From: a virus
Virus record (IMG/VR): IMGVR_UViG_3300013115_000353
Coordinates: 1 to 64,000 of that record
Strand: one strand, 5' to 3'
Length of the DNA: 64,000 nucleotides
Positions within the stretch are counted from its first letter, which is position 1. Each line of letters opens with the position of its first letter. The notes below the pieces were generated by a model. It ran no database searches. It was not told the origin of the DNA and saw only the letters and a program-made list of their open reading frames with translations. A program made the position numbers and the translations under genes. Of this stretch, positions 14,105-35,922 are shown piece by piece.

Positions 14105-14326
14105 TTATTCAGAAATTAAATCCATATCTCCTCCCCAAATTGTTTCTATAGTTTTGGTATTAAAGACATATACATCATAGAAGGGAAATAAGTTTGCTTG
14201 TCTTCCGTTGTGAATTTCAAGGACAATGCCGGTATTCTTTTCTTTTGCAACTGCCGCCTTGTAGTACCGATTTATTTTTACTAGATTGCCTTTTTTCAAT
14301 ATTGGCTCATCTGTTCTTTTAGCCAT
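14105..14326 (-). CDS. GDLV-family small SH3-like protein
   Basis: 73 residues. Divergent last member of the array: 'KKGNLVKINRYYKAAVAKEK', then 'NTGIVLEIHNG' and an ending 'GGDMDLISE'. The family pattern is a GDLV-like first strand, a G-(I/V)-V turn, an aromatic-rich strand and a final (L/I)EVI, consistent with a small five-stranded SH3/KOW-like barrel. Overlaps the upstream gene by 31 bases. Function unknown. Confidence 0.7.
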   Translation of the reverse strand: MAKRTDEPILKKGNLVKINRYYKAAVAKEKNTGIVLEIHNGRQANLFPFYDVYVFNTKTIETIWGGDMDLISE

Positions 14327-14748
14327 TCGTCAGCCCTCGGCGCAGATTTAAATTGAGGGGACAGCCCTTTAAGGTATTTTAAGGTTGCCGGCTCCAGCGC
14401 TGCCCATTGCCACTTCCACTCCGATTCTTTGCAAAAGACGAGCCCGGCACAAATATTGTTGGGAAGTTGTCCCGCGCGCATCGCCAATTTCCCAAGAAAA
14501 GAATTTTTTTTTCTTGATAAGTCATTTTCCTTTTCTAAATTTTTTTCATGTTCTCGTTCTTGAGACATGTCCGTCCGCACGAACGTCCACGAAGAAAGTT
14601 TAGTTTGAGAAGAATTATCCTTGTCAAGATGCTCGTCTAAAAATTTTTCTTTCGCTATTCTATCGTTTGCAGCTTCTACCACACAAAACGGTGCTTTCGC
14701 CCGTTTACCGTTTTTAAATAATTTGTATACATTCCATTTATGGCTCAT
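14296..14748 (-). CDS. Unknown charged protein (150 aa)
   Basis: Starts 'MSHKWNVYKLFKNGKRAKAP' at ATG 14748, chosen because GGAG lies seven bases upstream; an in-frame ATG 12 bases earlier lacks one. The middle (about 70-95) is a highly charged helix rich in E, K and N. The last part has 'NICAGLVFCKESEWKWQWAA'. No domain recognised. Overlaps genes on both sides within the GDLV operon. Confidence 0.65.
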   Translation of the reverse strand: MSHKWNVYKLFKNGKRAKAPFCVVEAANDRIAKEKFLDEHLDKDNSSQTKLSSWTFVRTDMSQEREHEKNLEKENDLSRKKNSFLGKLAMRAGQLPNNICAGLVFCKESEWKWQWAALEPATLKYLKGLSPQFKSAPRADEWLKEQMSQY

Positions 14749-15031
14749 AAGTTTCTCCATTTATTGAGTGCCAGCGATATACCCCTATCACAATAGAAAG
14801 TTTAAGCCCTTCTTCCTCTAATATTGGAGGAATCGGAGCATCTTCGTAATGTTCTTTCACAACATTATTCAACCATTTAACTTCCCATATATACACATCG
14901 TCTTCTACCATATCGATATAACGACGACGTTCAACCAGCAAACCAATATGGCCACCAATTGTATCGATAATAATATCACCTATAGATAGTATAACACTAC
15001 TTGTCTCACCATGCAAGATTTTATATGACAT
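14738..15031 (-). CDS. GDLV-family SH3-like protein (97 aa)
   Basis: Core 'LSIGDIIIDTIGGHIGLLVE' (residues 15-34) matches the GDLV / G-(I/V)-x-V pattern, followed by an aromatic strand 'YIWEVKWLNN'. It lacks the EVINESR tail and carries a C-terminal extension. The start ATG has no clear ribosome site and is preceded by an AT-rich tract (15032-15060), so the mRNA may have a very short leader. Confidence 0.65.
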   Translation of the reverse strand: MSYKILHGETSSVILSIGDIIIDTIGGHIGLLVERRRYIDMVEDDVYIWEVKWLNNVVKEHYEDAPIPPILEEEGLKLSIVIGVYRWHSINGETYEP

Positions 15032-15100
15032 ATAATAAATATTTTTATATCATATGAAACGGAAAGCGCAATAGGTACGTAACTATCAAATGAACAGTAA

Positions 15101-15340
15101 TTATCGTTTATGGAGAACAAACAGGCCGCTTTCTACTAGTTGTTTAAGGCCGCTTTCGGTGTAATCTTCAACGTTGGTATAATATGTTTGTGGCATTCCA
15201 CCACACCATCGTATTTCCCATGCCCAATGTTGAACGCTACCGGTGTAGGTTAAATCTTTATGCAACAAGTCATATCGGCGCACTAACACACCAACTTCTC
15301 TTGTTGTCGGGTCTATGACAAGATCACCAATCTCAAACAT
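15101..15340 (-). CDS. GDLV-family SH3-like protein (79 aa)
   Basis: 'MFEIGDLVIDPTTREVGVLV' starts the domain; 'HWAWEIRWCGG' is the aromatic strand. C-terminal extension 'LKQLVESGLFVLHKR' instead of the usual tail. Starts six bases after the lipoprotein gene stop. Confidence 0.7.
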   Translation of the reverse strand: MFEIGDLVIDPTTREVGVLVRRYDLLHKDLTYTGSVQHWAWEIRWCGGMPQTYYTNVEDYTESGLKQLVESGLFVLHKR

Positions 15341-15346
15341 CTACTC

Positions 15347-15592
15347 CTAAATAGGAAGCCATGCAGACGAACGGTCAGTACATACCATAATATACTCTTC
15401 GATTTTCTTAGCGTTATTAATATCGCTTTTAGGAAATTCAATGTTACAATGGCTATTTTGGCTATTGCGTGGGCCAATGTGTTCAATATTAATAGGTGCC
15501 GGAATAAAAGTTTCCGTTTCGGTATCCTTAAAGACAAAAGGAACGCAGGCTATTAAAAAGCCGCCAATAATGGCGGAAATAAGATATCGCAT
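15347..15592 (-). CDS. Small predicted lipoprotein (81 aa)
   Basis: ATG 15592 has GGAGG ten bases upstream; a TTG start six codons earlier is possible but spoils the signal peptide. 'MRYLISAIIGGFLIACVPFV' holds a hydrophobic core and lipobox L-I-A-C (Cys16). The mature part is polar and contains 'HIGPRNSQNSHCNIEFPKSD'. It could be an outer-membrane lipoprotein (exclusion factor or o-spanin-like), but no spanin partner was seen next to it. Confidence 0.65.
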   Translation of the reverse strand: MRYLISAIIGGFLIACVPFVFKDTETETFIPAPINIEHIGPRNSQNSHCNIEFPKSDINNAKKIEEYIMVCTDRSSAWLPI

Positions 15593-15621
15593 AATGTTTT
15601 TCACCTCCAATAGTGAACGCT

Positions 15622-15631
15622 TATAAATAGT
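15622..15631 (-). promoter_or_regulatory. ACTATTTATA decamer
   Basis: 29 bases before the lipoprotein start. Identical decamers lie before the 1441-residue giant gene (45640) and the acidic protein gene (52651). Confidence 0.3.
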
Positions 15632-15669
15632 ACCACATTTCCAGTTAAGCCTATAAAAAAAGAGTATTT

Positions 15670-16336: not shown

Positions 16337-16594
16337 TTAGTATACCCAATCCAAATGGGTCGCAAAAGTTTCTGAAATTCGTTTCGTTCTGAACCAATAA
16401 ACCCTAAACGTTCTTCCTTTATAATAGCCAGTTACGTCTCCTATTATAATCCCCAAATCAAGTCTCTTTTGATACTGATGTACTCTTCCTAAAATATAAC
16501 TCGGTGGTATGAGTGGGCCGCCGATACCGTACCCTGTAAATCTCACCAACTCACCAACTTGAAACATGCGCTTTTCATCGTCGTTATTTTTCAT
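16337..16594 (-). CDS. GDLV-family SH3-like protein
   Basis: 'MFQVGELVRFTGYGIGGPLI' is the domain start at internal Met10 (16567). The frame may begin at ATG 16594, which overlaps the upstream stop, or at 16567; neither has a strong ribosome site. Later strands: 'LGIIIGDVTG', 'FRVYWFRTKR'. Lacks the EVINESR tail. Confidence 0.65.
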   Translation of the reverse strand: MKNNDDEKRMFQVGELVRFTGYGIGGPLIPPSYILGRVHQYQKRLDLGIIIGDVTGYYKGRTFRVYWFRTKRISETFATHLDWVY

Positions 16595-16839: not shown

Positions 16840-17079
16840 CTATGATGCTCGATTTATTAATCTCAAGAATCGGGAATTGATTGTTCGTACACTGGGCGTT
16901 GTGTGTCTTAAACCATGCTCCACTGAATCGTCTTTAAACCAAAATACCCTAATTCTGTTACTGTACTTTCCGTTGTTCTCTAGAATCTCCAACACAACCC
17001 CTAGCGATTCGGGTGGTTGGTGACGGCGTCTGGCAGCTGCCTTAGATACTAAGTCTCCGACTTCGAATTGCTTGTCCAT
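16840..17079 (-). CDS. GDLV-family SH3-like protein, probably leaderless
   Basis: 'MDKQFEVGDLVSKAAARRRH', then 'LGVVLEILENNG' and 'IRVFWFKDDS'. The ATG lies four bases after the -10 box of the promoter at 17084-17112 and has no ribosome site, so the transcript probably starts at or near the ATG. Confidence 0.7.
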   Translation of the reverse strand: MDKQFEVGDLVSKAAARRRHQPPESLGVVLEILENNGKYSNRIRVFWFKDDSVEHGLRHTTPSVRTINSRFLRLINRAS

Positions 17080-17881: not shown

Positions 17882-18187
17882 TTAAAATGGTAGCTCGCCA
17901 ACGTGTTCAGTAATGGCTGGTGAGTTTTCAAACACTAACGGATGCCAAACGGAGTCAGCATAACGGGCAGCGATACCCACGTGGCAACTCGTTGTGTGCG
18001 TTGTAAAGTGTTTGGTGCGTGCTGTGTAGTCACCCACGATAGTGTAACCAGACTTAAGGCGCAACCCAATCAACTTACCGTATGACATCAAGTGTGTACC
18101 ATCTGTTGATAGTGAATGATTGCCGGTGCGGGCTTTGTTGCCTTGCGTCCATGCGTATACAACATCTACTCTTTTCTTAATACTCAT
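17882..18187 (-). CDS. Unknown conserved-looking phage protein (101 aa)
   Basis: Contains 'GNHSLSTDGTHLMSYGKLIG' and 'TTHTTSCHVGIAARYADSV', His/Thr/Ser-rich with no transmembrane segment. It looks like a small phage accessory protein, but I cannot name a family. GGAGAGG precedes the start, which overlaps the upstream stop by four bases. Confidence 0.65.
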   Translation of the reverse strand: MSIKKRVDVVYAWTQGNKARTGNHSLSTDGTHLMSYGKLIGLRLKSGYTIVGDYTARTKHFTTHTTSCHVGIAARYADSVWHPLVFENSPAITEHVGELPF

Positions 18188-18396
18188 TTACTTATCCTCT
18201 CCATATGCCTAAGCAGTCCACGATCAAACAGGCGTGGCTGACTATCACCCACTAACAATACCTTATGATTCGTTATAGTAACTCCATCGTCGCGATGGAT
18301 AATGTCTTCGCCCAGATAGATACCCGTGCGACGGTTAAGATCATGGGTGTGCCCATTGATGTAACCAAGTTTAAATAGATCACCGGCTTGTAACAT
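18184..18396 (-). CDS. GDLV-family SH3-like protein (70 aa)
   Basis: 'MLQAGDLFKLGYINGHTHDL' from ATG 18396, chosen for the GAGGT just upstream. 'RTGIYLGEDII' gives the central turn. Its tail 'HMERISK' replaces EVINESR. Confidence 0.65.
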   Translation of the reverse strand: MLQAGDLFKLGYINGHTHDLNRRTGIYLGEDIIHRDDGVTITNHKVLLVGDSQPRLFDRGLLRHMERISK

Positions 18397-18613
18397 TAAC
18401 CACCTCGTAATACCTTGCGTTAAAACCTCTGTCGCTGAGTCCATCGCGAAGGTATCGCCGTTCCAGGTCTGTCACCACCATTAGGTTACCTGATATATCG
18501 TCTCTTATAGACAACACCAAACCCACGCGCCCGTCCATTTCAGGGAACATGCGTTTACCATTATCACACATACTGCTGATGTCTTTGAAACGTACCAGAT
18601 CACCGACTTTCAT
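18380..18613 (-). CDS. GDLV-family SH3-like protein (77 aa)
   Basis: 'MKVGDLVRFKDISSMCDNGK', 'GRVGLVLSIRDD', tail 'YYEVVNVTSR'. The gene's start and the end of the next gene upstream (18600) share the junction GAGGTTGTAAATGAAAGTCG read in two frames. Confidence 0.8.
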   Translation of the reverse strand: MKVGDLVRFKDISSMCDNGKRMFPEMDGRVGLVLSIRDDISGNLMVVTDLERRYLRDGLSDRGFNARYYEVVNVTSR

Positions 18614-18815
18614 TTACAACCTCGATATCATCAATGTTCACGATGTGAGTGTGACCGCTACCCCACGCAACGAGCCAGTGATGTCCGCGTGCATGATCCA
18701 GACGATGAAGGCCCATATCATCATCTGCTGGACGAATGACAACGCCAACAGTATCACTATAAAGCCTCCATGCCTCATCTGTTACAATCTCTTTTACTAA
18801 ATCACCGACTTGCAT
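18600..18815 (-). CDS. GDLV-family SH3-like protein (71 aa)
   Basis: 'MQVGDLVKEIVTDEAWRLYS', 'VGVVIRPADD', 'HHWLVAWGSGHTHIV', tail 'DIEVVNESR'. The 14-base overlap on each side carries the junction word. Confidence 0.8.
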   Translation of the reverse strand: MQVGDLVKEIVTDEAWRLYSDTVGVVIRPADDDMGLHRLDHARGHHWLVAWGSGHTHIVNIDDIEVVNESR

Positions 18816-19404
18816 TTACAACCTCCAGGTTTTTAGCAGGATCCCAGAACGTACCGTAGCCGCCCCAGTTAACTTGCACGAGGCGTCTGCTTGCCACGTG
18901 ACCGGCAACATTGTCATCTATTGCGATGATAATACCCATACGCTTGGCTTGTGAAGCCCTGATCGCCTCGGTTCGCTTTGCTCGCTCTGGATTGGACTTG
19001 TACGTCACAAGCGCACCCACGGTGAAAGGGTCTACTGTGCTCTCCGTTAGGGTTGCTGTTGCAATCTTTTCGTCCCACGCCCTACCCGCGGCCTTCGCTT
19101 GCCAGATTGCATATGCGTTTTCAATATCTTTTCTGTGATCTTCGCTACCTTCCGTAATACGGATCCGGCTACGTGTTTTATTGTCCCACTCTGCGATACC
19201 CGCAAGGATCAACATCTCGCACGCAGTGTTACCGCTTGCATACGTTTGTGGGCCCATATCGGTGCCGGAAGATGGGCCACGCCGGTGTGCTTCAGTCGCA
19301 GCTTCCGCAACCGTCATTGACTTTACAGTCAACAACACAAACGCAATCAGCAACTCAGCCACGGTTAGCAGCGTGGGCCCGATCTTGATTAGGTTGTCTT
19401 TCAT
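18802..19404 (-). CDS. Membrane protein fused to a C-terminal GDLV domain
   Basis: 200 residues. Residues 8-28 form a hydrophobic helix ('LLTVAELLIAFVLLTV'). A soluble helical middle (30-125) follows, then a GDLV-type domain from about 128: 'FTVGALVTYKSN', 'MGIIIAIDDNVAG', 'LVQVNWGGYGTFW', tail 'NLEVVNASR'. This is the only array member tethered to a membrane. It suggests that the small barrels can work as add-on domains, or that a junction recombination fused two genes. The middle region is unrecognised. Confidence 0.7.
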   Translation of the reverse strand: MKDNLIKIGPTLLTVAELLIAFVLLTVKSMTVAEAATEAHRRGPSSGTDMGPQTYASGNTACEMLILAGIAEWDNKTRSRIRITEGSEDHRKDIENAYAIWQAKAAGRAWDEKIATATLTESTVDPFTVGALVTYKSNPERAKRTEAIRASQAKRMGIIIAIDDNVAGHVASRRLVQVNWGGYGTFWDPAKNLEVVNASR

Positions 19405-19611
19405 TTATGCCTCTACCGTGTCGGTAATCTCGGCAGCGAAGACCAACATAGCCTCCACCTGCTCAGGGGAAAGTGCCGCATCGGGTTGCGACTGCGCCAT
19501 CTGCGCATACAACGCAAGCTGGATAGCCATCACGTTACGGGTTGCTGCGCGTTGCTCCATTGGAGTCATCACGCGGGTAGTCTCAGGGGAATCGAGGACG
19601 AAATCAAACAT
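19405..19611 (-). CDS. Unknown small helical protein (68 aa)
   Basis: 'MFDFVLDSPETTRVMTPMEQ' then Ala/Gln/Met-rich helices ending 'FAAEITDTVEA'. Has GGAGCTATA before the ATG. No domain. Codon use is more GC-rich than in the structural genes, like its neighbours to 24.4 kb. Confidence 0.6.
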   Translation of the reverse strand: MFDFVLDSPETTRVMTPMEQRAATRNVMAIQLALYAQMAQSQPDAALSPEQVEAMLVFAAEITDTVEA

Positions 19612-19622
19612 TATAGCTCCTT

Positions 19623-19910
19623 TTAGCCTTGCGCCAAGATTGCGGCCAACTCGCTCGCGGACAACTTATCCGCAGCCTTCTCGACGGTCGCGTTGAACAC
19701 GATGTCAGCGCCCGGCTTGCGGGTTGCGGTGACGCTGCCACCTTCGACGCCCAGAAGCAGAACGCCTCGGTTCGCCTTGCGCGGACGGAAGAAACCAACG
19801 GCTTTCATGCCGTTAGCGCGGACAGCCGTGCGGATCTGCGTTTTCGCGTCCTTCCACGTCACGCAGGAAGTGTCAGGGGTGGTCTTGAGGGTTCCGAGAG
19901 TCTTGGTCAT
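19623..19910 (-). CDS. Unknown basic protein (95 aa)
   Basis: 'MTKTLGTLKTTPDTSCVTWK', Lys/Arg/Ala/Thr-rich, ending 'LSASELAAILAQG'. First gene after the promoter at 19941-19969. Possibly a nucleic-acid binding early protein, judging only from basic composition. Confidence 0.6.
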   Translation of the reverse strand: MTKTLGTLKTTPDTSCVTWKDAKTQIRTAVRANGMKAVGFFRPRKANRGVLLLGVEGGSVTATRKPGADIVFNATVEKAADKLSASELAAILAQG

Positions 19911-19940
19911 TGATAAGCTCCTTTCTTTAACTTATACTCT

Positions 19941-19994
19941 ATTATCTCATACGCGAGAGATGAAGTCAAGCCGGTTGTGTCAAGGGAATGTCAA
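19941..19994 (-). promoter_or_regulatory. Sigma70-type promoter with paired upstream boxes
   Basis: -35 TTGACT (19964-19969), 17-base spacer, -10 GATAAT (19941-19946). Upstream boxes TTGACA at 19978-19983 and 19989-19994, 11 bases apart. Drives 19623-19910 and the genes after it. The stretch 19995-20077 holds no gene. Confidence 0.75.
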
Positions 19995-20077
19995 AGGTGG
20001 AAAAATATTTTTAGGGTCCTGGAAGGCTCTGTGCTGGCTCCTGCCATCTCGGTCGAGCCAGCACACCAGCACACCAG

Positions 20078-20395
20078 CTACGAGCCACCACGGGCGCTCT
20101 CAGACGCCTCTGTGTCGGTGCTGTCGGCCTCTGCCATGATCTCGGCCACCTCACCCAGCGTCAACTGTCGATCCGCCTTCCGGCGCTTGTTGTAGGCGCG
20201 CTCCAGCTTGCCATACCGGCGACTGTTAACAGGGTGCTCGCACAGATGGATGTTCTCGATCCCCATGCGCTTGAACCGCTTAAGCTGCGCAACAGCGTTA
20301 GAAAATGAATCGGGACGGGTAAGGACATTTTCATATCCTGTAACCTTTCCATTTTCATTTAGAGTAACATAGGTTTTGGTAATGTAATACTTCAT
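20078..20395 (-). CDS. Unknown phage protein (105 aa)
   Basis: ATG 20395 has GGAGG six bases upstream and is preferred over a start 19 codons earlier. 'MKYYITKTYVTLNENGKVTG' reads as a beta-hairpin start; the middle is Arg/Lys-rich ('RYGKLERAYNKRRKADRQ') and the tail acidic with Ser. Follows the VWA gene by one base, so it is co-transcribed with it. No family recognised. Confidence 0.6.
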   Translation of the reverse strand: MKYYITKTYVTLNENGKVTGYENVLTRPDSFSNAVAQLKRFKRMGIENIHLCEHPVNSRRYGKLERAYNKRRKADRQLTLGEVAEIMAEADSTDTEASESARGGS

Positions 20396-20396
20396 T

Positions 20397-21647: not shown

Positions 21648-21670
21648 AAAAGTTTTCTCCTTACTCTATA

Positions 21671-23235: not shown

Positions 23236-23278
23236 GTGATTGTCTCCGGGGAGGATGAAAAGTTTTGCTTACTCTATA

Positions 23279-26769: not shown

Positions 26770-26775
26770 ACCAAT

Positions 26776-27991: not shown

Positions 27992-27997
27992 GACTAT

Positions 27998-29272: not shown

Positions 29273-29444
29273 TTAATAGCTCCAATACACCAGCGGTGCA
29301 ACGACTTCTCCCCAGATGTGTGGGGATCCACTGCACGCTATATTCAGGTGCAAGTGTCGCGTTGAGAGGTAGATACTCTCTGACGATGACACCCATTAAA
29401 TACGTGTCTTGTCTCTTGTGTTTCACCAAGTCACCGACTTTCAT
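29259..29444 (-). CDS. GDLV-family SH3-like protein (61 aa)
   Basis: 'MKVGDLVKHKRQDTYLMGVI', 'EYSVQWIPTHLGRSRCTA', tail 'VLELLNETR'. Confidence 0.76.
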   Translation of the reverse strand: MKVGDLVKHKRQDTYLMGVIVREYLPLNATLAPEYSVQWIPTHLGRSRCTAGVLELLNETR

Positions 29445-29614
29445 TTAACCACCTCTATCTTTGATACGCTCCAACTGCCTTTTCCGTGGCGCGTCATCAC
29501 GGTAACATGATCAATAGTGAGCAGTGCCCCTGTTATTCTCGATGGTATCTCGATGATCAGTGCCACCTCTTCGCGCCCGTTAATGGTGCGCTTTACCAGA
29601 TCACCGATTTTCAT
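29441..29614 (-). CDS. GDLV-family SH3-like protein (57 aa)
   Basis: Found by hand: 'MKIGDLVKRTINGREEVALI', 'LLTIDHVTVMTRHGKGSW', tail 'KIEVVK'. Overlaps the next gene by four bases (ATGA). Confidence 0.75.
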   Translation of the reverse strand: MKIGDLVKRTINGREEVALIIEIPSRITGALLTIDHVTVMTRHGKGSWSVSKIEVVK

Positions 29615-29759
29615 CTAACTGCCCCTTGTGCTTCACCTGACGGACGTAGCCGCGCTTGCTGTGGTATCCGGCGCCACGCCTACCCGTTAGCCCCTTGGAG
29701 TGAACCACGAGCCAGTTACGAGCCTTGGGGGGCTTGTTCTTGTTGCGCTTTCGAGCCAT
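29601..29759 (-). CDS. Small very basic protein (52 aa)
   Basis: 'MARKRNKNKPPKARNWLVVH', then 'SKGLTGRRGAGYHSKRGYVR'. GGAG lies five bases before the ATG. About one third Arg/Lys, so probably nucleic-acid binding. Similar short basic genes occur in large marine phages; I cannot name the family. First gene after the promoter at 29779-29807; its last codons hold the junction to the array. Confidence 0.7.
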   Translation of the reverse strand: MARKRNKNKPPKARNWLVVHSKGLTGRRGAGYHSKRGYVRQVKHKGQLDENR

Positions 29760-29778
29760 AATATCTCCTTACTCTCTA

Positions 29779-29832
29779 AATATACACCCCAGAGAGCTAA
29801 AAGTCAAGGGGTAGATGTCAGGTAAATGTAAA
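29779..29832 (-). promoter_or_regulatory. Sigma70-type promoter with degenerate paired boxes
   Basis: -35 TTGACT (29802-29807), 17-base spacer, -10 TATATT (29779-29784); boxes CTGACA 29816-29821 and TTTACA 29827-29832, adjoining the tRNA 3' end. Confidence 0.78.
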
Positions 29833-29909
29833 ATGGAGCCCAAGATCAGAATCGAACTGATGACCTTTTCCCTACCAAGGAAATGCTCTGCCAACTGAGC
29901 TACCTGGGC
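29833..29909 (-). tRNA. tRNA-Thr (GGU anticodon)
   Basis: A 77-base cloverleaf: acceptor GCCCAGG/CTTGGGC, anticodon stem TTTCC/GGAAA with loop TTGGTAG (anticodon GGT), T-arm ATCAG-TTCGATT-CTGAT. The CCA end is encoded. Confidence 0.93.
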
Positions 29910-29910
29910 G

Positions 29911-30027
29911 CTAATCTTTAAGTTTGTTTTTTAAGTTTTCAATCAGTTTTTGAAAATGTTTAATAGCATTTTCATATGCTTCAATACTTTCTTCGACTTG
30001 TTTTGTTTCTTCTTTTGTTAATGACAT
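29911..30027 (-). CDS. Small coiled-coil peptide (38 aa)
   Basis: 'MSLTKEETKQVEESIEAYEN', then 'AIKHFQKLIENLKNKLKD': a single amphipathic helix with heptad spacing. Near-perfect ribosome site GGAGGAAAG before the ATG. Its leader is the structured RNA at 30057-30193. Confidence 0.65.
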   Translation of the reverse strand: MSLTKEETKQVEESIEAYENAIKHFQKLIENLKNKLKD

Positions 30028-30056
30028 CTTTCCTCCTTTAAGTTATAAATGTAAAT

Positions 30057-30193
30057 AAGAGGATCCCCGTTGTGCGATCTTGCTCACACTGCTAACCTCC
30101 CTTTAACTGTTTGTTGCTGTCTCACTTCAGACATGCTTGTGGTTCGTAGGAGATATTGAACCACTCCACTTATAAGTTATCGGGGATCCTCTT
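30057..30193 (-). ncRNA. Candidate structured RNA or 5' leader element (137 nt)
   Basis: A perfect 13-bp closing stem (30057-30069 with 30181-30193, minus strand AAGAGGATCCCCG / CGGGGATCCTCTT) encloses three hairpins. These are 30139-30145/30158-30164 (7 bp, 12-nt loop), 30118-30122/30129-30133 (5 bp, 6-nt loop) and 30072-30077/30084-30089 (6 bp, 6-nt loop). The last needs a G-U pair that exists only in minus-strand RNA, which supports that strand. It has no open frame of note. It ends 30 bases before the start of the 38-residue gene, so it may be a cis-regulatory leader or a free RNA next to the tRNA. It matches no RNA family that I recognise. Confidence 0.55.
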
Positions 30194-30201
30194 TAAAATA
30201 G

Positions 30202-30423
30202 TCACTTTGTTACGGCTCCATTTATCACCTCAATCTCATAGTTGTTTTCGTTAATAACACCCTGCACCGTGCCGGTCCTGGTGCATCGTCCAGGTATCAA
30301 TATATCCCATAGTCCATCATCGGGGGGCGGATACTTACGCATTACCAGACAAGGCCCCACCCATAAATCATACGGCGGTGGCTGAAAGTTGGCCTTGTAC
30401 CTAATCAAATCACCTACCTTCAC
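30202..30423 (-). CDS. GDLV-family SH3-like protein (73 aa, GTG start)
   Basis: 'KVGDLIRYKANFQPPPYDLW', 'LWDILIPGRCTRTG', tail 'YEIEVINGAVTK'. Last gene of a sub-array from 31893, ending just before the structured RNA. Confidence 0.75.
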   Translation of the reverse strand: MKVGDLIRYKANFQPPPYDLWVGPCLVMRKYPPPDDGLWDILIPGRCTRTGTVQGVINENNYEIEVINGAVTK

Positions 30424-30616
30424 TGATTACCTCCACCTCTGCTCTTTTAAACCACATCTCTCTCACCCATTTACTCTCAATGGTAATATGGGGTCTGTGG
30501 AAATGTACCAATATATAATCGCCCTGAACACTTGTTGCTCTTTCCCATTTAACTATTACACCCACCATATGATGCCCAGTTCGTCTATATGGCCGCACCA
30601 GATCACCTATTTTCAC
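30410..30616 (-). CDS. GDLV-family SH3-like protein (68 aa, GTG start)
   Basis: 'KIGDLVRPYRRTGHHMVGVI', 'YILVHFHRPHITIES', tail 'EVEVISEGR'. GTG 30616 preceded by GGAGGTGCTTA; an upstream frame extension is rejected. Confidence 0.76.
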   Translation of the reverse strand: MKIGDLVRPYRRTGHHMVGVIVKWERATSVQGDYILVHFHRPHITIESKWVREMWFKRAEVEVISEGR

Positions 30617-30818
30617 TAAGCACCTCCAAGAACTCATCATCGGACAGGTATTCAGCGGAAAATGTCCCGTGATCGGGACACGTCCAGTGAATCGTGATGA
30701 CCTCGTTGTACGCATACTGTACGCATTTTGTTATAATACCTTTCCAGTCGCCACAATACGCAAAACCGGGATCCAGCACGTGCTCTGTTGTAAACCTAAC
30801 CAAATCACCTACTTTCAT
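30603..30818 (-). CDS. GDLV-family SH3-like protein (71 aa)
   Basis: 'MKVGDLVRFTTEHVLDPGFA', 'WKGIITKCVQYAYNEVITIH', tail 'FLEVLSENR'. Confidence 0.76.
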   Translation of the reverse strand: MKVGDLVRFTTEHVLDPGFAYCGDWKGIITKCVQYAYNEVITIHWTCPDHGTFSAEYLSDDEFLEVLSENR

Positions 30819-30984
30819 TTATAACCTCGTATTCATATGATGCCTTCGGAAAATGCAGTTCGATTCGCTTGGACTCATTCAAAATAATAAACTTGTTTGG
30901 ACGATCTTCAACCAGATACCCGATGTGCTCTGAGTTGGAAAGGTTGTCTTTCAGTCTGATTCTAATCTTTGGAAAGTCTTTCAT
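30805..30984 (-). CDS. Array protein with degenerate N-terminus (59 aa)
   Basis: Found by hand: 'MKDFPKIRIRLKDNLSNSEH', 'IGYLVEDRPNKFIILNES', tail 'YEYEVINESR'. The GDLV strand is replaced by a basic sequence, but the central G-Y-L-V turn and the tail remain, so it is a diverged family member. Confidence 0.7.
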   Translation of the reverse strand: MKDFPKIRIRLKDNLSNSEHIGYLVEDRPNKFIILNESKRIELHFPKASYEYEVINESR

Positions 30985-31178
30985 TTTATAACCTTTAGCT
31001 GATAGCTGTTTTGTTGTTTGATTCTACCCTGAAGAAAGTTCCACGATACCCAAACGGGATAAGTTACACTAATAGGGCAGTTCTGCACATCGACAACTAT
31101 TCCTAATGATAGCGGACACTTATGAGAGTCACGCGCTGCTCCATCCATCTTAAGAGTTACTAAATCACCCACCTTCAT
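30981..31178 (-). CDS. GDLV-family SH3-like protein (65 aa)
   Basis: 'MKVGDLVTLKMDGAARDSHK', 'LGIVVDVQNCPISVTYPVWV', tail 'YQLKVIK'. Confidence 0.77.
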   Translation of the reverse strand: MKVGDLVTLKMDGAARDSHKCPLSLGIVVDVQNCPISVTYPVWVSWNFLQGRIKQQNSYQLKVIK

Positions 31179-31419
31179 TTATAACCTCCACATGAACCGC
31201 ATACCGTCGAATCCTCTTTCCTTCTGTGGTTAGAATAAACATAGTACGAACAGGTGCCTCTGCAATCTGCTCTGCCGTATATGCTTCTGGAGAACGATTG
31301 TGTGTTTCAAGAACAATACCATATGTGTACGGAGGCATAACGCATCGCTTCTTCGTACACCATCCTTCTCGCACCAGATCGCCCACTTGTGCGCAGTGTC
31401 CCGGTTTAACTGCCTTCAT
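31165..31419 (-). CDS. GDLV-family SH3-like protein (84 aa)
   Basis: 'CAQVGDLVREGWCTKKRCVM', 'TYGIVLETHNRSPEA', 'TMFILTTEGKRIRRYA', tail 'HVEVINEGG'. Has an eight-residue N-terminal addition. Confidence 0.76.
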   Translation of the reverse strand: MKAVKPGHCAQVGDLVREGWCTKKRCVMPPYTYGIVLETHNRSPEAYTAEQIAEAPVRTMFILTTEGKRIRRYAVHVEVINEGG

Positions 31420-31597
31420 TTATAACCTTCAATAACATTCTTTTAAACCAGCCCTTGTCTGCGTTTTTGTTTGCCCATATAATAAGACACTCATTCCCTC
31501 GACATTGAACAACCAAACCGGGACAAAAAATATCACGGCTCACGTCATTCAAATGAACGATTAGATCGCCTACACTGGGGGCACCGCTACTTTTCAC
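31406..31597 (-). CDS. GDLV-family SH3-like protein (63 aa, GTG start)
   Basis: 'GAPSVGDLIVHLNDVSRDIF', 'PGLVVQCRGNECLIIWANKN', tail 'LLKVINEGS'. Confidence 0.75.
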   Translation of the reverse strand: MKSSGAPSVGDLIVHLNDVSRDIFCPGLVVQCRGNECLIIWANKNADKGWFKRMLLKVINEGS

Positions 31598-31784
31598 TTA
31601 TAACCTCCACTTCGCTTTCATACGTCACAGATGTTCCATCTCTTAATGTCCATTTTGGGTTAGCCCATAAGACCGCCCATCTCGCATCGCCATCGTCGTC
31701 ATCGAAAAGAAACTTAACCACCAGCCCAATACCAAAGTCCTGTCCAGGGCCCTCAACACGCTGTACTAAATCACCCGGTTTCAT
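31587..31784 (-). CDS. GDLV-family SH3-like protein (65 aa)
   Basis: 'MKPGDLVQRVEGPGQDFGIG', 'LVVKFLFDDDDGDARWAVLW', tail 'EVEVISEK'. ATG 31784 has GGAG upstream; the longer frame is rejected because a separate small gene covers it. Confidence 0.76.
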   Translation of the reverse strand: MKPGDLVQRVEGPGQDFGIGLVVKFLFDDDDGDARWAVLWANPKWTLRDGTSVTYESEVEVISEK

Positions 31785-31893
31785 CTGGCTGACTCCACAA
31801 GTATTTAATGTATGCGCCCAGAAAAGGCAGCGAAGAACCCCATAGAACGAGAAACGATAGCTCCTGATGGCAGTTAGCAAACAAGTGTTCCAT
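31771..31893 (-). CDS. Small membrane-like peptide (40 aa)
   Basis: 'MEHLFANCHQELSFLVLWGS', then 'SLPFLGAYIKYLWSQPDETG'. One hydrophobic segment. The start shares bases with the upstream stop (TAATG), and the end overlaps the next GDLV gene by 14 bases. Confidence 0.5.
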   Translation of the reverse strand: MEHLFANCHQELSFLVLWGSSLPFLGAYIKYLWSQPDETG

Positions 31894-32267
31894 TAAATAG
31901 CAATGCTCCGTTCAATATAAATATTTTCAAACCCCCAGCCGCGATGTACATTATCGTCTGAGTCCTCGCCTATGCGAACAAAACGATAAAAGTTAACAGC
32001 CTCGTGTTCGTCGCCATCGACATCGATATGTTCGCCATCGCACCAGTCCATAAAGTCAACGATAGCATCGATCTCTTCGTAGCCCTCAAACCATTTGATA
32101 CTGGACCAGTTAAACAGGATGTTACCATCTCCGTCATAGTCTTTGATCATCCTATCTGTCCCTGAAAAACACATCTCACGTGCTTCCGGCGACTTTGCCA
32201 TTGTGGCTAAGAACTGTGGCATCACCTCTTTGGCGACGATAAAAACGACTTCTGAACGATAGCCCAT
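31893..32267 (-). CDS. Conserved small phage protein 'MGYRSEV' type (124 aa)
   Basis: The opening 'MGYRSEVVFIVAKEVMPQFL' and the later 'NWSSIKWFEGYEEIDAIVDF' follow a pattern I recall in accessory proteins of many phages of Gram-negative bacteria, function unknown. Acidic, mixed alpha/beta, no transmembrane segment. It belongs to the operon started at 32453-32481. Confidence 0.7.
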   Translation of the reverse strand: MGYRSEVVFIVAKEVMPQFLATMAKSPEAREMCFSGTDRMIKDYDGDGNILFNWSSIKWFEGYEEIDAIVDFMDWCDGEHIDVDGDEHEAVNFYRFVRIGEDSDDNVHRGWGFENIYIERSIAI

Positions 32268-32268
32268 T

Positions 32269-32433
32269 TTAAACCCCTGCTTCTTTATTAAGTTTTGTCA
32301 ACAGTTCGTTGAGCGATTCGATCTCGCTTTCGAGGTAGTCGGCATCGCCATACATAGCGCAGGTTTCCAGATCATCGATCCGATTGTTGACACAATCGAT
32401 CAGCGAAATGATTTCATCGGTTGTCAGATTCAT
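32269..32433 (-). CDS. Small acidic helical protein (54 aa)
   Basis: Found by hand: 'MNLTTDEIISLIDCVNNRID', then 'DLETCAMYGDADYLESEIES'. GGAGAAAAA precedes the ATG. Amphipathic helices; function unknown. Confidence 0.65.
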   Translation of the reverse strand: MNLTTDEIISLIDCVNNRIDDLETCAMYGDADYLESEIESLNELLTKLNKEAGV

Positions 32434-32452
32434 TTTTTCTCCTTACTCTATA

Positions 32453-32507
32453 AATATAGCACCGGACGGCACCAAAGTCAATAGGGAAGTTGTTAAGTAG
32501 ATGTCAA
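32453..32507 (-). promoter_or_regulatory. Sigma70-type promoter with paired upstream boxes
   Basis: -35 TTGACT (32476-32481), 17-base spacer, -10 TATATT (32453-32458); boxes TTAACA 32491-32496 and TTGACA 32502-32507. Confidence 0.8.
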
Positions 32508-32764
32508 GCCTTGCTGACTAATACAAGTTCGTGTGAAAGGTATACCTGATGGAGAGATCCGAATAAAACTGTGATACGATACATATCATGCACGTTTTCT
32601 GTTATCATAACTATTCCTACAGGTTCCGGTGGCACCCAATCGCCTTGAGCGCGGTGTATTTCGATCAGTTTCGGATCCAAACGAACCAGATCCCCTATTT
32701 GGTAAACTCGTCCGATAACATTTCCTCTAACGAGACGTAAAATGCCCTGCTCTCTGGTGGGCAT
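32504..32764 (-). CDS. GDLV-family protein without a normal start
   Basis: The domain core 'VYQIGDLVRLDPKLIEIHRA' begins where the usual ATG/GTG is replaced by GTT, inside the end of the upstream gene. The frame is open back to ATG 32764, giving 86 residues and a 70-base overlap, but that ATG has no ribosome site. It may use that start, a non-canonical start, or be decaying. 'VGIVMITENVH' and 'ITVLFGSLHQV' are intact. Confidence 0.55.
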   Translation of the reverse strand: MPTREQGILRLVRGNVIGRVYQIGDLVRLDPKLIEIHRAQGDWVPPEPVGIVMITENVHDMYRITVLFGSLHQVYLSHELVLVSKA

Positions 32765-32898
32765 TCATCTAAAATATCATTAACCAAATCTATTAACTTG
32801 GCTATTTCCTCCCTCTCTTTCTTCTGTCGGTATTCGTCTAAATCAACGACGTTATCATCACCCGACCACCCTATCTTAATATCGAAATCGTAGCACAT
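32695..32898 (-). CDS. Unknown small acidic protein (67 aa)
   Basis: 'MCYDFDIKIGWSGDDNVVDL' then a charged helix 'DEYRQKKEREEIAKLIDLVN' and 'MLSDEFTK'. No family recognised; overlaps the GDLV-type gene downstream by 70 bases. Confidence 0.6.
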   Translation of the reverse strand: MCYDFDIKIGWSGDDNVVDLDEYRQKKEREEIAKLIDLVNDILDECPPESRAFYVSLEEMLSDEFTK

Positions 32899-32937
32899 TA
32901 ACGGTGTTTCCTTGTGTGTAAAAATGTTTTGTATACT

Positions 32938-33126
32938 CTAAGATGATGTAGCTTTTTTCAAGAACATCGCGTGAAACTTTAGCTCGGCACGATTGGGAAA
33001 CAAAACGATATAACTGTTCTTATGGTTCCCTTCTCGCACAATGAGCCCCGTGCGATGATCGGGGATCTCTTCTTGGTTTGTGCCGTCTGTAATGACAACC
33101 AAATCACCTGGCTTAAAAGTTTTCAT
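32938..33126 (-). CDS. GDLV-family SH3-like protein (62 aa), nearly leaderless
   Basis: 'MKTFKPGDLVVITDGTNQEE', 'RTGLIVREGNHKNSYIVLFP', end 'AMFLKKATSS'. The ATG is eight bases after the -10 box at 33135-33140 and lacks a ribosome site. Confidence 0.7.
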   Translation of the reverse strand: MKTFKPGDLVVITDGTNQEEIPDHRTGLIVREGNHKNSYIVLFPNRAELKFHAMFLKKATSS

Positions 33127-33134
33127 CACTTATA

Positions 33135-33188
33135 AGTATGCCACTCTTTCTTAAAAGATGCAAGCAATATATGTCAAGTCGCTGTCAA
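33135..33188 (-). promoter_or_regulatory. Sigma70-type promoter with paired upstream boxes
   Basis: -35 TTGCAT (33158-33163), 17-base spacer, -10 CATACT (33135-33140); TTGACA boxes at 33172-33177 and 33183-33188. Confidence 0.7.
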
Positions 33189-33476
33189 GTATGGAATACC
33201 TGGAGGCAGTTCGCCTGACACGATACCTCCGTGTTTGGCAACCACGAGGGTGATCTGTGTTGCTGGCACATATCCATAAACCGTTTCGGTAGGTTTTTCG
33301 GGGCTTTCTGCCCATTCCATTAACAGATTCTCTTTCTGGTTTGGATACCCCACTTCCACCGCTGTGTATTTAGCGGCTTTGTCAATGCGTGGCGTACAGT
33401 ACGCACCCTCATTAGCTTGGACGCTCATAGTGAAGCCATCCTTGCAGGTAACTTTTTTATTAAGTCTTCGTGTCAA
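33174..33476 (-). CDS. Conserved phage protein of unknown function (100 aa, TTG start)
   Basis: Start taken as TTG 33476, with GGAGAG upstream and overlapping the previous stop (TTGA). 'CKDGFTMSVQANEGAYCTPR' and 'YTAVEVGYPNQKENLLMEW' with 'VYGYVPATQITLVVAKHGGI' form a pattern I recall from hypothetical proteins of cyanophages and other marine T4-like phages. Likely a small beta-rich protein. The three genes to 33921 form a set that seems to travel together. Confidence 0.65.
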   Translation of the reverse strand: MTRRLNKKVTCKDGFTMSVQANEGAYCTPRIDKAAKYTAVEVGYPNQKENLLMEWAESPEKPTETVYGYVPATQITLVVAKHGGIVSGELPPGIPYLTAT

Positions 33477-33694
33477 AGCTCTCTCCTTTTTTCTTCTGAC
33501 TTCGTTGATGCTGTCAACTCGTTGAGATACACTGGGTGATCGCCAGGTACGAGTGCCACCACATTTACGCCGGGTGGCCAAAAGCGCCCAAACTTCTCTT
33601 GAGCCTCCCTTAGTGCTTTTTGGCTATCGTTATCCCCATAAAATGTTTGTTTAATGTACGTATCTCCATTGTATAAAATAGCTGTCCAAGTCAT
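33473..33694 (-). CDS. Conserved small phage protein (73 aa)
   Basis: 'MTWTAILYNGDTYIKQTFYG' from ATG 33694, preceded by AAGGAGAG; a Lys/Arg-rich end follows. Similar 'xxIFNGDSYIKQ' proteins appear in marine phages; function unknown. Confidence 0.65.
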   Translation of the reverse strand: MTWTAILYNGDTYIKQTFYGDNDSQKALREAQEKFGRFWPPGVNVVALVPGDHPVYLNELTASTKSEEKRREL

Positions 33695-33921
33695 TTTTCT
33701 CTCCTTATGCAAATAACTTCTGATTCTGTTTCAATCCACACGCGCGCCCCACACGATAACGGTTTGTCGGGCGAATATATCACTTTACATGGCCCATTTA
33801 TCACAGCTTCGTGGCAGTAATCGTTTGATTTATAGGTTTTAACCGTCAATACTGCCTCTTGTTCTTTGTTCTTCCGATTGGATCGGATTTTGTGTTGATT
33901 TACGTGTATTCTTTTTTTCAT
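33691..33921 (-). CDS. Conserved small protein with 'KPLSCGARVWIETE' motif (76 aa)
   Basis: 'MKKRIHVNQHKIRSNRKNKE' and 'SPDKPLSCGARVWIETESEV': a pattern I recall from marine phages and some bacteria, unknown function. ATG 33921 sits 12 bases after the end of the tRNA-like gene; an upstream extension would run through the tRNA and is rejected. Confidence 0.7.
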   Translation of the reverse strand: MKKRIHVNQHKIRSNRKNKEQEAVLTVKTYKSNDYCHEAVINGPCKVIYSPDKPLSCGARVWIETESEVICIRREK

Positions 33922-33933
33922 TGTTTCTAAATA

Positions 33934-34018
33934 TGGTAGGGGCGGTGGGACTTGAACCCACATGCACCAGTTACCCAAGTTTCATGCACCGCTTATAAGA
34001 CGGCTGGGATACGCCCCC
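33934..34018 (-). tRNA. Atypical tRNA, probably Ile (UAU anticodon)
   Basis: 85 bases with encoded CCA. Acceptor GGGGGCG/CGCCCCT and T-arm GTGGG-TTCAAGT-CCCAC are sound. The only good anticodon arm is GCCGT-CTTATAA-GCGGT (anticodon TAT). It lies only seven bases after the acceptor, leaving no room for a normal D-arm. A 27-base variable region contains the direct repeat GGTGCATG at a 22-base distance. Either an unusual tRNA or a decayed one. Confidence 0.5.
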
Positions 34019-34019
34019 T

Positions 34020-34094
34020 TGGTAGGTCCACCAGGAATCGAACCTGGAACGAAAGATTAGAAGTCTTTTGTGATATCCCTTTCACCATAGACCC
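34020..34094 (-). tRNA. tRNA-Arg (UCU anticodon)
   Basis: 75 bases: acceptor GGGTCTA/TGGACCT with two wobbles, D-arm GTGA/TCAC, anticodon stem AAAGA/TCTTT with loop CTTCTAA (anticodon TCT), T-arm with TTCGATT loop, encoded CCA. Reads AGA codons. Confidence 0.92.
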
Positions 34095-34097
34095 ATG

Positions 34098-34574
34098 TTA
34101 TTGTTCCAGGTTTAAGGTGCCGTGTGGCGTTTTAACGCTCACGTCCCAACCACCCAGAAGGGGGGTATTATGAATAAGATTGGCTACCGGAATCTGCACA
34201 ACGGCAGTAAGGGTGGTGAAGCCCCGTTTATGATCGTACCTCTCCGTTGAACTCTCAACGATTTCAGTATCATAGAAGTTTTCGTTAATAGTCTCGATAA
34301 GGTATTCAGCGAATGTATTATCGCGTTCGTAGTCTTCAAGGTAGCCATCCTCTCGCAAAGTATCTAAGATGCTGCTTCCACTCCAGCAGTCGCGCACGTC
34401 TAAACCAGGCGTGGCAAGCAGATTGCTCAAGTAATATACCACATCGGTTTCTGCCAGTGCGGTTTCTATCTCAGTTTCGTTGTGGATAAAAACATCAGTT
34501 CCCTCACTACATGTAAGGACTGCCATCGTATCTTCCGGCAGATTAAGTTGTTTCAAAGTATCATATACAGACAA
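34098..34574 (-). CDS. Conserved phage protein of unknown function (158 aa, TTG start)
   Basis: TTG start with GGAGG six bases upstream. 'VVYYLSNLLATPGLDVRDCW', 'ILDTLREDGYLEDYERDNTF' and 'YDHKRGFTTLTAVVQIP' follow a hypothetical-protein pattern I recall from marine T4-like phages. Acidic, alpha/beta. Own promoter at 34615-34643; the tRNA-Arg follows four bases after its stop, so the tRNAs are probably processed from this transcript. Confidence 0.7.
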   Translation of the reverse strand: MSVYDTLKQLNLPEDTMAVLTCSEGTDVFIHNETEIETALAETDVVYYLSNLLATPGLDVRDCWSGSSILDTLREDGYLEDYERDNTFAEYLIETINENFYDTEIVESSTERYDHKRGFTTLTAVVQIPVANLIHNTPLLGGWDVSVKTPHGTLNLEQ

Positions 34575-34614
34575 GTTGCCTCCTCAAAAATTATTATTTT
34601 GTCTAACTTTTAAA

Positions 34615-34643
34615 ATAATAACACCCTTTTATGACGAAGTCAA
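34615..34643 (-). promoter_or_regulatory. Sigma70-type promoter
   Basis: TTGACT (34638-34643), 17-base spacer, TATTAT (34615-34620). No paired upstream boxes. Confidence 0.7.
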
Positions 34644-34802
34644 GAACTTTCTTAAAAAAACTGGAACCTTCCCAACACTATCTACACCACCCATCACATC
34701 ATCGTGTTGACTATTACTCCTTGACGGGCATACCACACTGGTAGCTTGCAGTTGCAGGCGAACGCCACTTCGCCGCTGAGACGGAAGGCAGGCTATTTCC
34801 AG

Positions 34803-34874
34803 TTACTCCGTAGCAACGACATATGCAAAAAATATACCGCACGCTACAGCAGCGGCGAATGCAAATATCATCAT
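34803..34874 (-). CDS. Possible tiny membrane peptide (23 aa)
   Basis: 'MMIFAFAAAVACGIFFAYVV' then ATE; AAAGGAGATAAATC precedes the ATG, an excellent ribosome site. Hydrophobic throughout. The remaining gap 34644-34802 shows no convincing gene. Confidence 0.45.
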   Translation of the reverse strand: MMIFAFAAAVACGIFFAYVVATE

Positions 34875-34904
34875 GATTTATCTCCTTTAATAGTAGCAAA
34901 TAGG

Positions 34905-34978
34905 TGGGCCTTCTGGGACTTGAACCCAGGACCATCCGGTTATGAGCCGGGTGCTCTGACCAACTGAGCTAAAAGCCC
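34905..34978 (-). tRNA. tRNA-Met/Ile2 (CAU anticodon)
   Basis: 74 bases: acceptor GGGCTTT/AAGGCCC, D-arm with AGTTGGTCAGAGC, anticodon stem CCGG with loop CTCATAA (anticodon CAT), T-arm CTGGG-TTCAAGT-CCCAG, discriminator A. CCA is not encoded (CCT follows). Methionine or, if lysidine-modified, AUA isoleucine. Confidence 0.9.
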
Positions 34979-34984
34979 ATTGAT

Positions 34985-35013
34985 AGTATAACATTTAGTA
35001 TCAATGAAGTCAA
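34985..35013 (-). promoter_or_regulatory. Sigma70-type promoter for the CAU tRNA
   Basis: TTGACT (35008-35013), 17-base spacer, TATACT (34985-34990), placed seven bases before the tRNA 5' end. Confidence 0.75.
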
Positions 35014-35369
35014 TAACTTTTTAGCCATTCAATAGGATACCACGCCTCGGGTGCGAATACTGCTTTCATCGTGTAATCTGAAGGCTTTTTCATCCATTTT
35101 ACATATGCAAACTTCAACTTAGGTTTGCTCGCCCATCCAGCATTATAATAAAATGCCTGATCAAGAAACTCCGTATCGCCGCAGCGTTGATAGGCGTTTT
35201 TAAATATCTGTGCTCTATCTGTGTAGCTTATGATGTCTTTTGTTTCCTCTAAGATTTTCGTTATATTGACCCCGCCTTCCCTGGCTAAATCGTCAGAATA
35301 TTTAATAACGATGCCTATACCCCGCTCTCGCCGTCGTGGCATGCACACCAAATCGCCCACCTTTATCAT
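35010..35369 (-). CDS. GDLV-family protein with a 60-residue insertion (119 aa)
   Basis: 'MIKVGDLVCMPRRRERGIGI' starts the barrel. A helical insertion follows (about 28-80, including 'ILEETKDIISYTDRAQIFKN'), and the aromatic strand resumes at 'KLKFAYVKWMKKPS', ending 'YPIEWLKSY'. Largest single-domain member. Confidence 0.72.
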   Translation of the reverse strand: MIKVGDLVCMPRRRERGIGIVIKYSDDLAREGGVNITKILEETKDIISYTDRAQIFKNAYQRCGDTEFLDQAFYYNAGWASKPKLKFAYVKWMKKPSDYTMKAVFAPEAWYPIEWLKSY

Positions 35370-35370
35370 A

Positions 35371-35655
35371 TCATACCTTTCCTTTTAATACGCTCACATA
35401 GCCAATAGGCACCTTCACAATAACAGAGCGCCAGCCCATGTATTTACCACGAAGTTCCAGAATCGGATGCTCTACGTCCATGGTATCGGAAGGATCATTA
35501 ACCTCTACATTTACTTCTAATATCTGTCCCCCATCATCCGATGTAAACCGCGCATGATAAACGATTGTAGGGCACCTTTCGTTAACGAATCTTTCAATGG
35601 TTTTTAGCACATCTGATCGAGACTCTTTTTTTCCACCGAAATGTATATTAGCCAT
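35371..35655 (-). CDS. Unknown small protein (94 aa)
   Basis: 'MANIHFGGKKESRSDVLKTI', 'ILEVNVEVNDPSDTMDVEHP', 'YMGWRSVIVKVPIGYVSVLK'. Alternating beta strands after one helix; no family recognised. Confidence 0.6.
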   Translation of the reverse strand: MANIHFGGKKESRSDVLKTIERFVNERCPTIVYHARFTSDDGGQILEVNVEVNDPSDTMDVEHPILELRGKYMGWRSVIVKVPIGYVSVLKGKV

Positions 35656-35685
35656 TTTAAATTATCCCCTTAATGTATTTCATTT

Positions 35686-35922
35686 TCAATCTCCATTACT
35701 TAGTATCTCAAACTCTTCGTTTTTGATGTTTATCAATGTCCATTTGTAATCGGTACAATCATAGCAAAAAACAATCATAGAGACAGGATCATCGCCGGTG
35801 GCTATCTCCATAACGATTCCATGACGGTATATAGGATGAAACCCAACAAGTCCATCTGGATATGCTGCATATGTCTCATACTCACTAACCCACCTTATTA
35901 AACACCCCGGCTTTATCTCCAT
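35686..35922 (-). CDS. GDLV-family SH3-like protein (78 aa)
   Basis: 'MEIKPGCLIRWVSEYETYAA', 'RHGIVMEIATGDDPVSMIVF', tail 'EEFEILSNGD'. First array member in transcription order at this end. Confidence 0.7.
   Translation of the reverse strand: MEIKPGCLIRWVSEYETYAAYPDGLVGFHPIYRHGIVMEIATGDDPVSMIVFCYDCTDYKWTLINIKNEEFEILSNGD

Follow-up and report, generated by a model that had tools for sequence, protein, structure and literature searches.

How phages come to swap single genes with precision is a long-standing question: such swaps may arise by homologous recombination at boundary sequences or by illegitimate recombination followed by selection. In lambdoid phages, short conserved border sequences have been proposed as the homologous recombination sites that make mosaics, and at most mosaic borders such sequences are said not to be identifiable (PMC3029335). 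Here, we describe an array of small genes, referred to as GDLV genes, at positions 14105-35922 of the IMG/VR record IMGVR_UViG_3300013115_000353. The stretch analyzed (the window) comprises bases 1-64000 of this 85,455-base record of an uncultured virus, and almost all of its genes lie on the minus strand. The likeness to the lambdoid boundary sequences lies in a short conserved sequence at gene borders with a proposed role in homologous recombination, and exchanged array segments indeed share a short sequence at their ends. The lambdoid sequences are, however, not described as coding overlaps, whereas the GDLV border lies inside two overlapping genes and occurs many times per genome within one protein family.

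Three further systems come close. In T4-type phages, PeSLs (promoter-plus-terminator motifs between small early genes) are associated with modular shuffling (Arbiol 2010; Comeau 2014, via PMC4503421). As far as they are described in that account, PeSLs resemble the GDLV borders in being repeated elements between small shuffled genes, and the ends of GDLV runs likewise merge with promoters. The GDLV repeat, in contrast, serves translation and is read in two frames, and the runs are without intergenic DNA; no early promoter and stem-loop terminator of the PeSL type separates the shuffled genes, as the overlaps of 14 nucleotides (nt) leave no room between genes inside runs. Cluster K mycobacteriophages carry SAS, a 13-base-pair repeat present in 11-19 copies at ribosome sites, for which a role in translation initiation and possibly in homologous recombination has been suggested (PMC3203893). 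Here too a short repeat occurs in many copies at ribosome sites, but SAS precede genes of different families and no exchange is reported for them (PMC3203893), whereas the GDLV repeat covers both ends of one family and exchange is seen. The SAS-type repeat GGGATAGGAGCCC was not found upstream of the starts, where the consensus in GDLV junctions is TTGGAGGTGATCAGTGAAAGTCGGTGATTTGGT. Finally, integron cassettes also form arrays of exchangeable single genes with uniform borders. In integrons, each gene is followed by a recombination site; the GDLV borders are instead coding overlaps, and no attC-like structure was seen at them. We put aside an integron-like interpretation because coding or ribosome binding already accounts for the conserved bases; the recombination profiles searched were those of RecA (found) and RecT (absent). 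The sequence-only reading of this DNA that preceded our analysis knew of no phage system built this way; a search of the open-access literature likewise yielded no account of cassettes of a single family built on coding overlaps, boundary sequences, T4 PeSLs, and mycobacteriophage SAS being the closest.

Central to the array is a word that is read twice, as had been claimed from the sequence. In the run from 26784 down to 25388, GAGGTTATAAATGAAAGTCGGTGA reads E-V-I-N-E-S-R-stop in the frame of the upstream gene (GAG GTT ATA AAT GAA AGT CGG TGA) and, from its ATG, M-K-V-G-D in that of the next (ATG AAA GTC GGT GAT). More generally, the shared word joins the upstream tail E-V-I-N/S-E-S-R-stop, an extended Shine-Dalgarno sequence, and the next start. 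Its parts are a near-full Shine-Dalgarno GGAGGTGATC, a start codon, and the codons for M-K-V-G-D-L-V, of which the Gly-Asp codons GGT GA(T) provide the TGA stop of the upstream protein. GGAGGTGATC is complementary to the common bacterial 16S rRNA 3' end GATCACCTCC, which may not be that of this phage's host. The downstream start and its ribosome site lie inside the upstream gene, the arrangement of overlapping genes that are predicted to be translationally coupled. A cassette is a whole gene, counted from its own start codon to the next (median 175 nt), with the same ~30-nt word at both ends, and all 799 distinct 14-nt cassette units have a length of 1 modulo 3, as the overlap demands.

A 20-mer of the word, GAGGTTATAAATGAAAGTCG, is present in eight copies at up to three mismatches, all on the minus strand, and in none of the shuffled sequences. 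Perfect copies lie at 26253-26272 (tail of the gene 26249-26425, Shine-Dalgarno and start of 26095-26262) and at 26570-26589 (tail of 26566-26784, start of 26412-26579). Centered on this 20-mer is a 33-nt junction repeat, D1, with 16 minus-strand copies within 18371-31188, starting at 18371, 18591, 18793, 25748, 26086, 26240, 26403, 26557, 28903, 29078, 29250, 29422, 29592, 30401, 30796, and 31156.

Codon usage reflects the double reading. Across related loci, 562 of the 579 genes coupled by 14 nt use GAG for the tail Glu (vs a GAG share of 44% in the remainder of these genes), the tail Ile in 14-nt junctions avoids ATT, and the Gly codon of G-D is GGT at 645 of 652 coupled starts vs 330 of 491 uncoupled ones. 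For run-ending genes that stop within a promoter, the tail Glu is GAA in 30 out of 37. At both protein ends, codons thus follow the ribosome site and the stop codon where genes are coupled. The idea that the two conserved protein ends are partly the same DNA therefore holds for the N/S-E-S-R end, which is dictated by the overlap, but has to be narrowed for L-E-V-I. The latter is also a protein feature, since it persists in some run-ending genes with other codons (e.g., CTGGAAGTCATCAGCGAGTCTTGA); in the AlphaFold model it forms the last barrel strand.

In the array region, a hidden Markov model (HMM) of the family gave 33 domain matches at an independent E-value (i-E) below 0.05, to which seven weaker open reading frames (ORFs) were added on the basis of the motif, whereas no plus-strand ORF of the record matched better than about E=1.5. 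The large same-strand array described earlier is hence real, with a count nearer 40 than the "more than 40" given for it. Its junctions encode both gene ends in many cases, but the 14-nt form occurs at only about half of those in the window (19 neighboring pairs, with several others overlapping by 4 nt). The term array also needs qualification: the genes form not one unbroken series but several runs, set apart by promoters and by conserved non-family genes, such as those for a MoxR-like ATPase and a DUF2201/VWA protein.

The system is not confined to this record. The MoxR-like protein (22159-23235), used as an anchor, has 117 viral relatives, and in more than 100 related viral contigs the overlap is exactly 14 nt at 738 of 1,208 nonredundant GDLV-GDLV junctions (4 nt, the second most common value, occurs at 96), with TTGGAGGTGATCAGTGAAAGTCGGTGATTTGGT as the 14-nt consensus. 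The loci examined hold 1,749 distinct family proteins. In each of the 32 related records tested, the word is confined to one strand, and a reversed word pattern, taken as control, gave no match; contexts of the word have a family gene on both sides in 413 of 471 cases and on neither side in one. The hosts of the array form a large group of uncultured, apparently marine phages with genomes of mostly ~185-205 kb. With E up to 0.01 as the cutoff, each record of that size contains 10-31 members of the family, and three larger records contain 24-33. The arrays are also borne by larger phages with a better-matching RecA, L227 (293 kb), L160 (235 kb), and L182 (267 kb), so that the system spans genome sizes. 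Against the phage collection, tblastn of the MoxR-like and DnaE-like proteins gave only matches below 60% identity and the family consensus gave none; with no close cultured relative, neither the host nor the biology can be inferred from an isolate. A second anchor, the protein at 31893-32267, retrieved three contigs only. The bacterial genome search returned just five contigs from marine metagenome-assembled genomes; those with relatives of the DUF2201 protein (L232-L236) are labeled Neomarinimicrobiota, Deltaproteobacteria, Acidiferrobacteraceae, and Bacteroidetes, and are probably mis-binned phage.

Comparison of these relatives shows exchange at the junctions. The phages differ widely in how many GDLV genes lie between fixed anchors. 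In array DNA matches between loci (at least 150 nt and at least 80% identity), the right end falls at the word in 89% of cases and the left end in 78%, where position alone predicts 16% and 14%, i.e., a 5.5-fold excess for right ends. In 132 matches, a single gene is delimited by junctions in both genomes; some of these genes are 96-99% identical where MoxR is 69-76% identical and the neighbors are unrelated. For example, L014 and L020 share a gene at 98.9% identity (MoxR 75.7%), and L025 and L219 share one at 97.8% (MoxR 68.8%). Base-level alignments of exchanged genes run from unrelated to identical to unrelated, with the switches within the word. In L087, L088, and L089, the same two flanking genes enclose nothing, one gene, and a different gene, respectively. 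The L088 insert differs from the empty L087 site by exactly one 184-nt cassette between near-identical flanks, with a perfect word at both insert ends in the filled site and a single word in the empty one. Likewise, the near-identical pairs L221/L223 and L211/L209 each differ by one gene.

Gene order is thus not kept among related genomes: the same next gene follows in 22 of 143 orthologue pairs at 70-90% identity (11 of 65 at 80-90%) and in 15 of 36 at 90-97%, counts vary, and breakpoints lie at junctions. The sequence-only reading held that in-register homology lets genes be lost, duplicated, or shuffled. The L087/L088 pair, an insertion of exactly one gene, supports this, and neither a fixed order without junction-bounded gain or loss nor unrelated folds, the two outcomes named in advance as fatal to it, was found.

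We consider it likely that the locus is an exchangeable-cassette array of single-domain SH3-like proteins, exchanged by homologous recombination at in-register words with coupling preserved. A ribosome ending one protein would stop 14 nt inside the next gene, past its ribosome site, so that translation could restart and the run be co-expressed. As judged from the breakpoints, the same word in the same register would allow recombination, whether of two phages infecting the same cell or of copies within a single genome, to insert, delete, or replace whole genes, and any in-register product would again be a correctly coupled run. The recombinase is probably the phage RecA, which is encoded by 17 of 17 phages tested (in this record at 72545-73369, beyond the window), so that RecA-mediated recombination at ~30 nt of in-register identity appears plausible; a RecT profile found no match. 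Whether the arrays constitute a distinct gene-exchange system is, to us, evenly balanced. In such a system, the codons of the family's ends would serve at once as ribosome site, start, stop, and recombination homology; any member could be joined to any other and, via the stop in TTGACA, to promoters; and, by recombination within a phage population, well over a thousand small binding proteins would be reassorted as one shared library, with expression undamaged.

Several observations weigh against the proposed role of the word. Mosaicism at gene boundaries is common in phages, and among the other genes of these phages 43% of match ends lie near an ORF boundary vs 18% expected. About a quarter of the junctions inside runs are not of the 14-nt type. 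The 14-nt form is only modestly more frequent among exchanged genes (86% of 3' ends and, for genes that do not open a run, 90% of 5' ends, vs 75%), and some of these genes lack it. As BLAST extends through any conserved word, a crossover can be placed no finer than the word itself, and all comparison contigs are metagenomic assemblies. Overlaps of a start and a stop with the Shine-Dalgarno site inside the gene are, moreover, common in phage operons. The shared junction could be a relic of tandem duplication and selection for coupling, with illegitimate recombination of which only in-frame, gene-bounded products survive and a word that is no recombination site. We find this unlikely, albeit the most serious competitor. 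Random joins would rarely recreate an exact 14-nt overlap together with the word, yet the L087/L088 site has perfect words; the excess of right ends at the word is seen in arrays, whereas elsewhere fewer right ends than expected lie close to an ORF start, at a distance of up to 35 nt (22 of 694, or 3%, vs 5.9%). Furthermore, 2,124 of 2,164 members have no paralogue at 50% identity or more within the same locus, which argues against recent local tandem duplication as the main source.

The GDLV proteins could also be structural or replication parts needed in many copies, with coupled runs fixing their ratios. The runs are indeed co-directional and start from host-type promoters, and many assemblies contain SH3-like barrels, but content and order differ even between phages with MoxR at 95-100% nucleotide identity, unlike an assembly of fixed parts, which makes this explanation improbable. 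Still less probable is that the word is the binding site of a regulator or site-specific recombinase (cf. integron attC and stoperators) and the coding overlap incidental. Its ~30 strongly conserved nt exceed what a Shine-Dalgarno sequence needs and recur in every related record tested; nevertheless, two protein ends and a ribosome site explain nearly every conserved base, doubly free positions vary, and the consensus has no visible inverted-repeat symmetry, the recombinase gene searches covering RecA and RecT. Least probable, and largely refuted, is that the exchanges are assembly chimeras seeded in metagenomic contigs by a short (20-30 nt), nearly exact repeat, since the longest k-mers of common assemblers exceed this repeat in length, the array order is the same at 99.8-100% identity over ~21 kb in three separate metagenome datasets (the window, L010, and L011) and over the array in L057/L058, and exchanged genes often differ by a few percent from their relatives, unlike joined reads of co-occurring phages.

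What the proteins do may be approached through their fold. AlphaFold predicts for two members (23% identical) the same five-stranded SH3-like barrel (pLDDT 84 and 81; pTM 0.71 and 0.69), in line with the SH3-like character proposed from the sequence. Foldseek retrieves PetP, YorP, and Tudor-type domains (TM 0.69-0.74, best E 2.5e-3) as well as many small phage proteins. Pfam gave no gathering-score match for the family, KOW included; weak profile matches reach NusG and uL24 at E 0.02-0.05 (the best PDB profile match being NusG at E=0.02) and other SH3-like families, and every PHROGs match is of unknown function. The predicted barrel is the likeness to PetP, SPbeta YorP, the N-terminus of T4 MotB, and Phi3T Nip, from which the GDLV proteins differ by very weak sequence similarity, a single domain, and occurrence in arrays. 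T4 MotB, with such a domain at its N-terminus, alters H-NS binding to DNA (PMC7827196), and Phi3T Nip is a counter-defence protein with predicted SH3-like domains (PMC11984713); these phage examples thus act on a host DNA-binding protein or on host defence. Given the host-type promoters and the rapid turnover, we tentatively suggest, at somewhat less than even confidence, that the GDLV proteins are an early host-takeover or counter-defence repertoire. The outcome of the exchange may then be a fast-changing set of small binding proteins, expressed from host-type promoters.

Within the window, the run 25388-26784 (the array genes, anchors, and promoters given here and below are on the minus strand) starts with 26566-26784, which is not a GDLV gene yet has the tail IEVINESR. 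It continues through 26412-26579, 26249-26425, 26095-26262, 25926-26108, 25757-25939, 25591-25770, and 25388-25594, and base-by-base reading gives six 14-nt overlaps in succession and then one of 4 nt. The run 28049-29759 is similarly led by a non-family gene (29601-29759, tail LDENR), followed by 29441-29614, 29259-29444, 29087-29272, 28912-29100, 28734-28925, 28543-28737, 28236-28556 (divergent), and 28049-28249, with six 14-nt and two 4-nt overlaps. In the run 30202-31788 (31587 to about 31780, 31406-31597, 31165-31419, 30981-31178, the divergent 30805-30984, 30603-30818, 30410-30616, and 30202-30423), five overlaps are of 14 nt, one of 11, and one of 4. The run 26827-28006 (27779-28006, the non-family 27489-27782, 27268-27492, 27033-27275, and 26827-27030) has overlaps of 4 and 8 nt and not of 14.

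GDLV-type genes are scattered over 32504-35922 (35686-35922, 35010-35369, 32938-33129, and 32504-32764, of which 32938-33129 is a strong match and the rest weak), and two (21935-22162 and the weaker 21696-21938) stand between the MoxR-like and DUF2201 anchors. The 3' part of the array has the coupled genes 18600-18815, 18380-18613, and 18184-18396 (HMM and junction table; the last weak, kept on motif), the HMM-supported 16840-17079, 16337-16594, and 14105-14326, and 15101-15340 and 14738-15031, weak matches kept on motif. Coupled to 18600-18815 is a 200-residue gene (18802-19404) whose C-terminal 74 residues (127-200) are a GDLV domain (i-E 6e-15) with the tail LEVVNASR. It is one of very few fusions found; a survey of fusions for functional clues gave six candidates, none informative. 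An Rfam scan of the array returned tRNAs only. A ~215-nt segment with a tRNA-Thr (29833-30047) is missing from the otherwise 99.8-100% identical contig L010 and kept in L011.

Seven sigma-70-like promoters, TTGACT-17-TATATT, lie within 21671-32481 (first hexamers starting at 32481, 29807, 28026, 26804, 25365, 23307, and 21699), and further ones with a variant -10 at 35013, 34643, and 19969. The end of the gene 25388-25594 is fused with a promoter (25388-25412), its stop TGA lying within the upstream TTGACA of the next promoter, and the same is found at the ends of 26827-27030 and 28049-28249. Among family genes preceding a promoter, 81 of 136 stop on the TGA of a TTGA box; promoters thus join the array by the same economy. 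At 26776-26804 and 27998-28026, the ATG follows the -10 box by ~6 nt, leaving no space for a ribosome site, which suggests that the first genes of these runs may be expressed from leaderless mRNAs. Terminator-like sites are not more frequent than in shuffles (19 vs 15.5, sd 4.1).

As for the surroundings, the MoxR-like ATPase gene (22159-23235; PF07728, 2e-9) adjoins that of the DUF2201 putative metallopeptidase/VWA-like protein (20397-21647; Pfam PF13203, 6e-21, and PF09967, 2e-11), a MoxR-VWA pair in a phage (20397-23235) that is kept across relatives. The anchor-region proteins (20397-25316) gave no function for the region. From reading of the ORFs, we take other genes in the window to be GroEL-like, ClpP-like, and IMPDH-like, as expected of a large phage; a DNA polymerase III alpha-like gene was recognized by reading and by tblastn of its DnaE-like protein against the phage collection. 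Two very large proteins of 1,218 and 1,441 residues (5278-8934 and 41295-45620) share a block like YSIIxxRxPIDxLRMSDxxxIxSCH...ARGHG/AHGHG and have no telling Pfam match, except that the N-terminus of the first weakly matches DUF2608. A lipoprotein-like protein of 539 residues (12257-13876) and two trypsin-like protease ORFs (11508-12290 and 40483-41283), again by reading, are unusual cargo for a phage.

In short, the GDLV arrays are a clear case of protein ends, translation signals, and recombination homology residing on the same bases, and their 1,749 distinct proteins form a large pool of uncharacterised small phage proteins. Widespread in nature, with hundreds of borders that are nearly identical, numerous recent exchanges, and both an empty and a filled site, they make the question of how phages exchange genes at their borders directly measurable.

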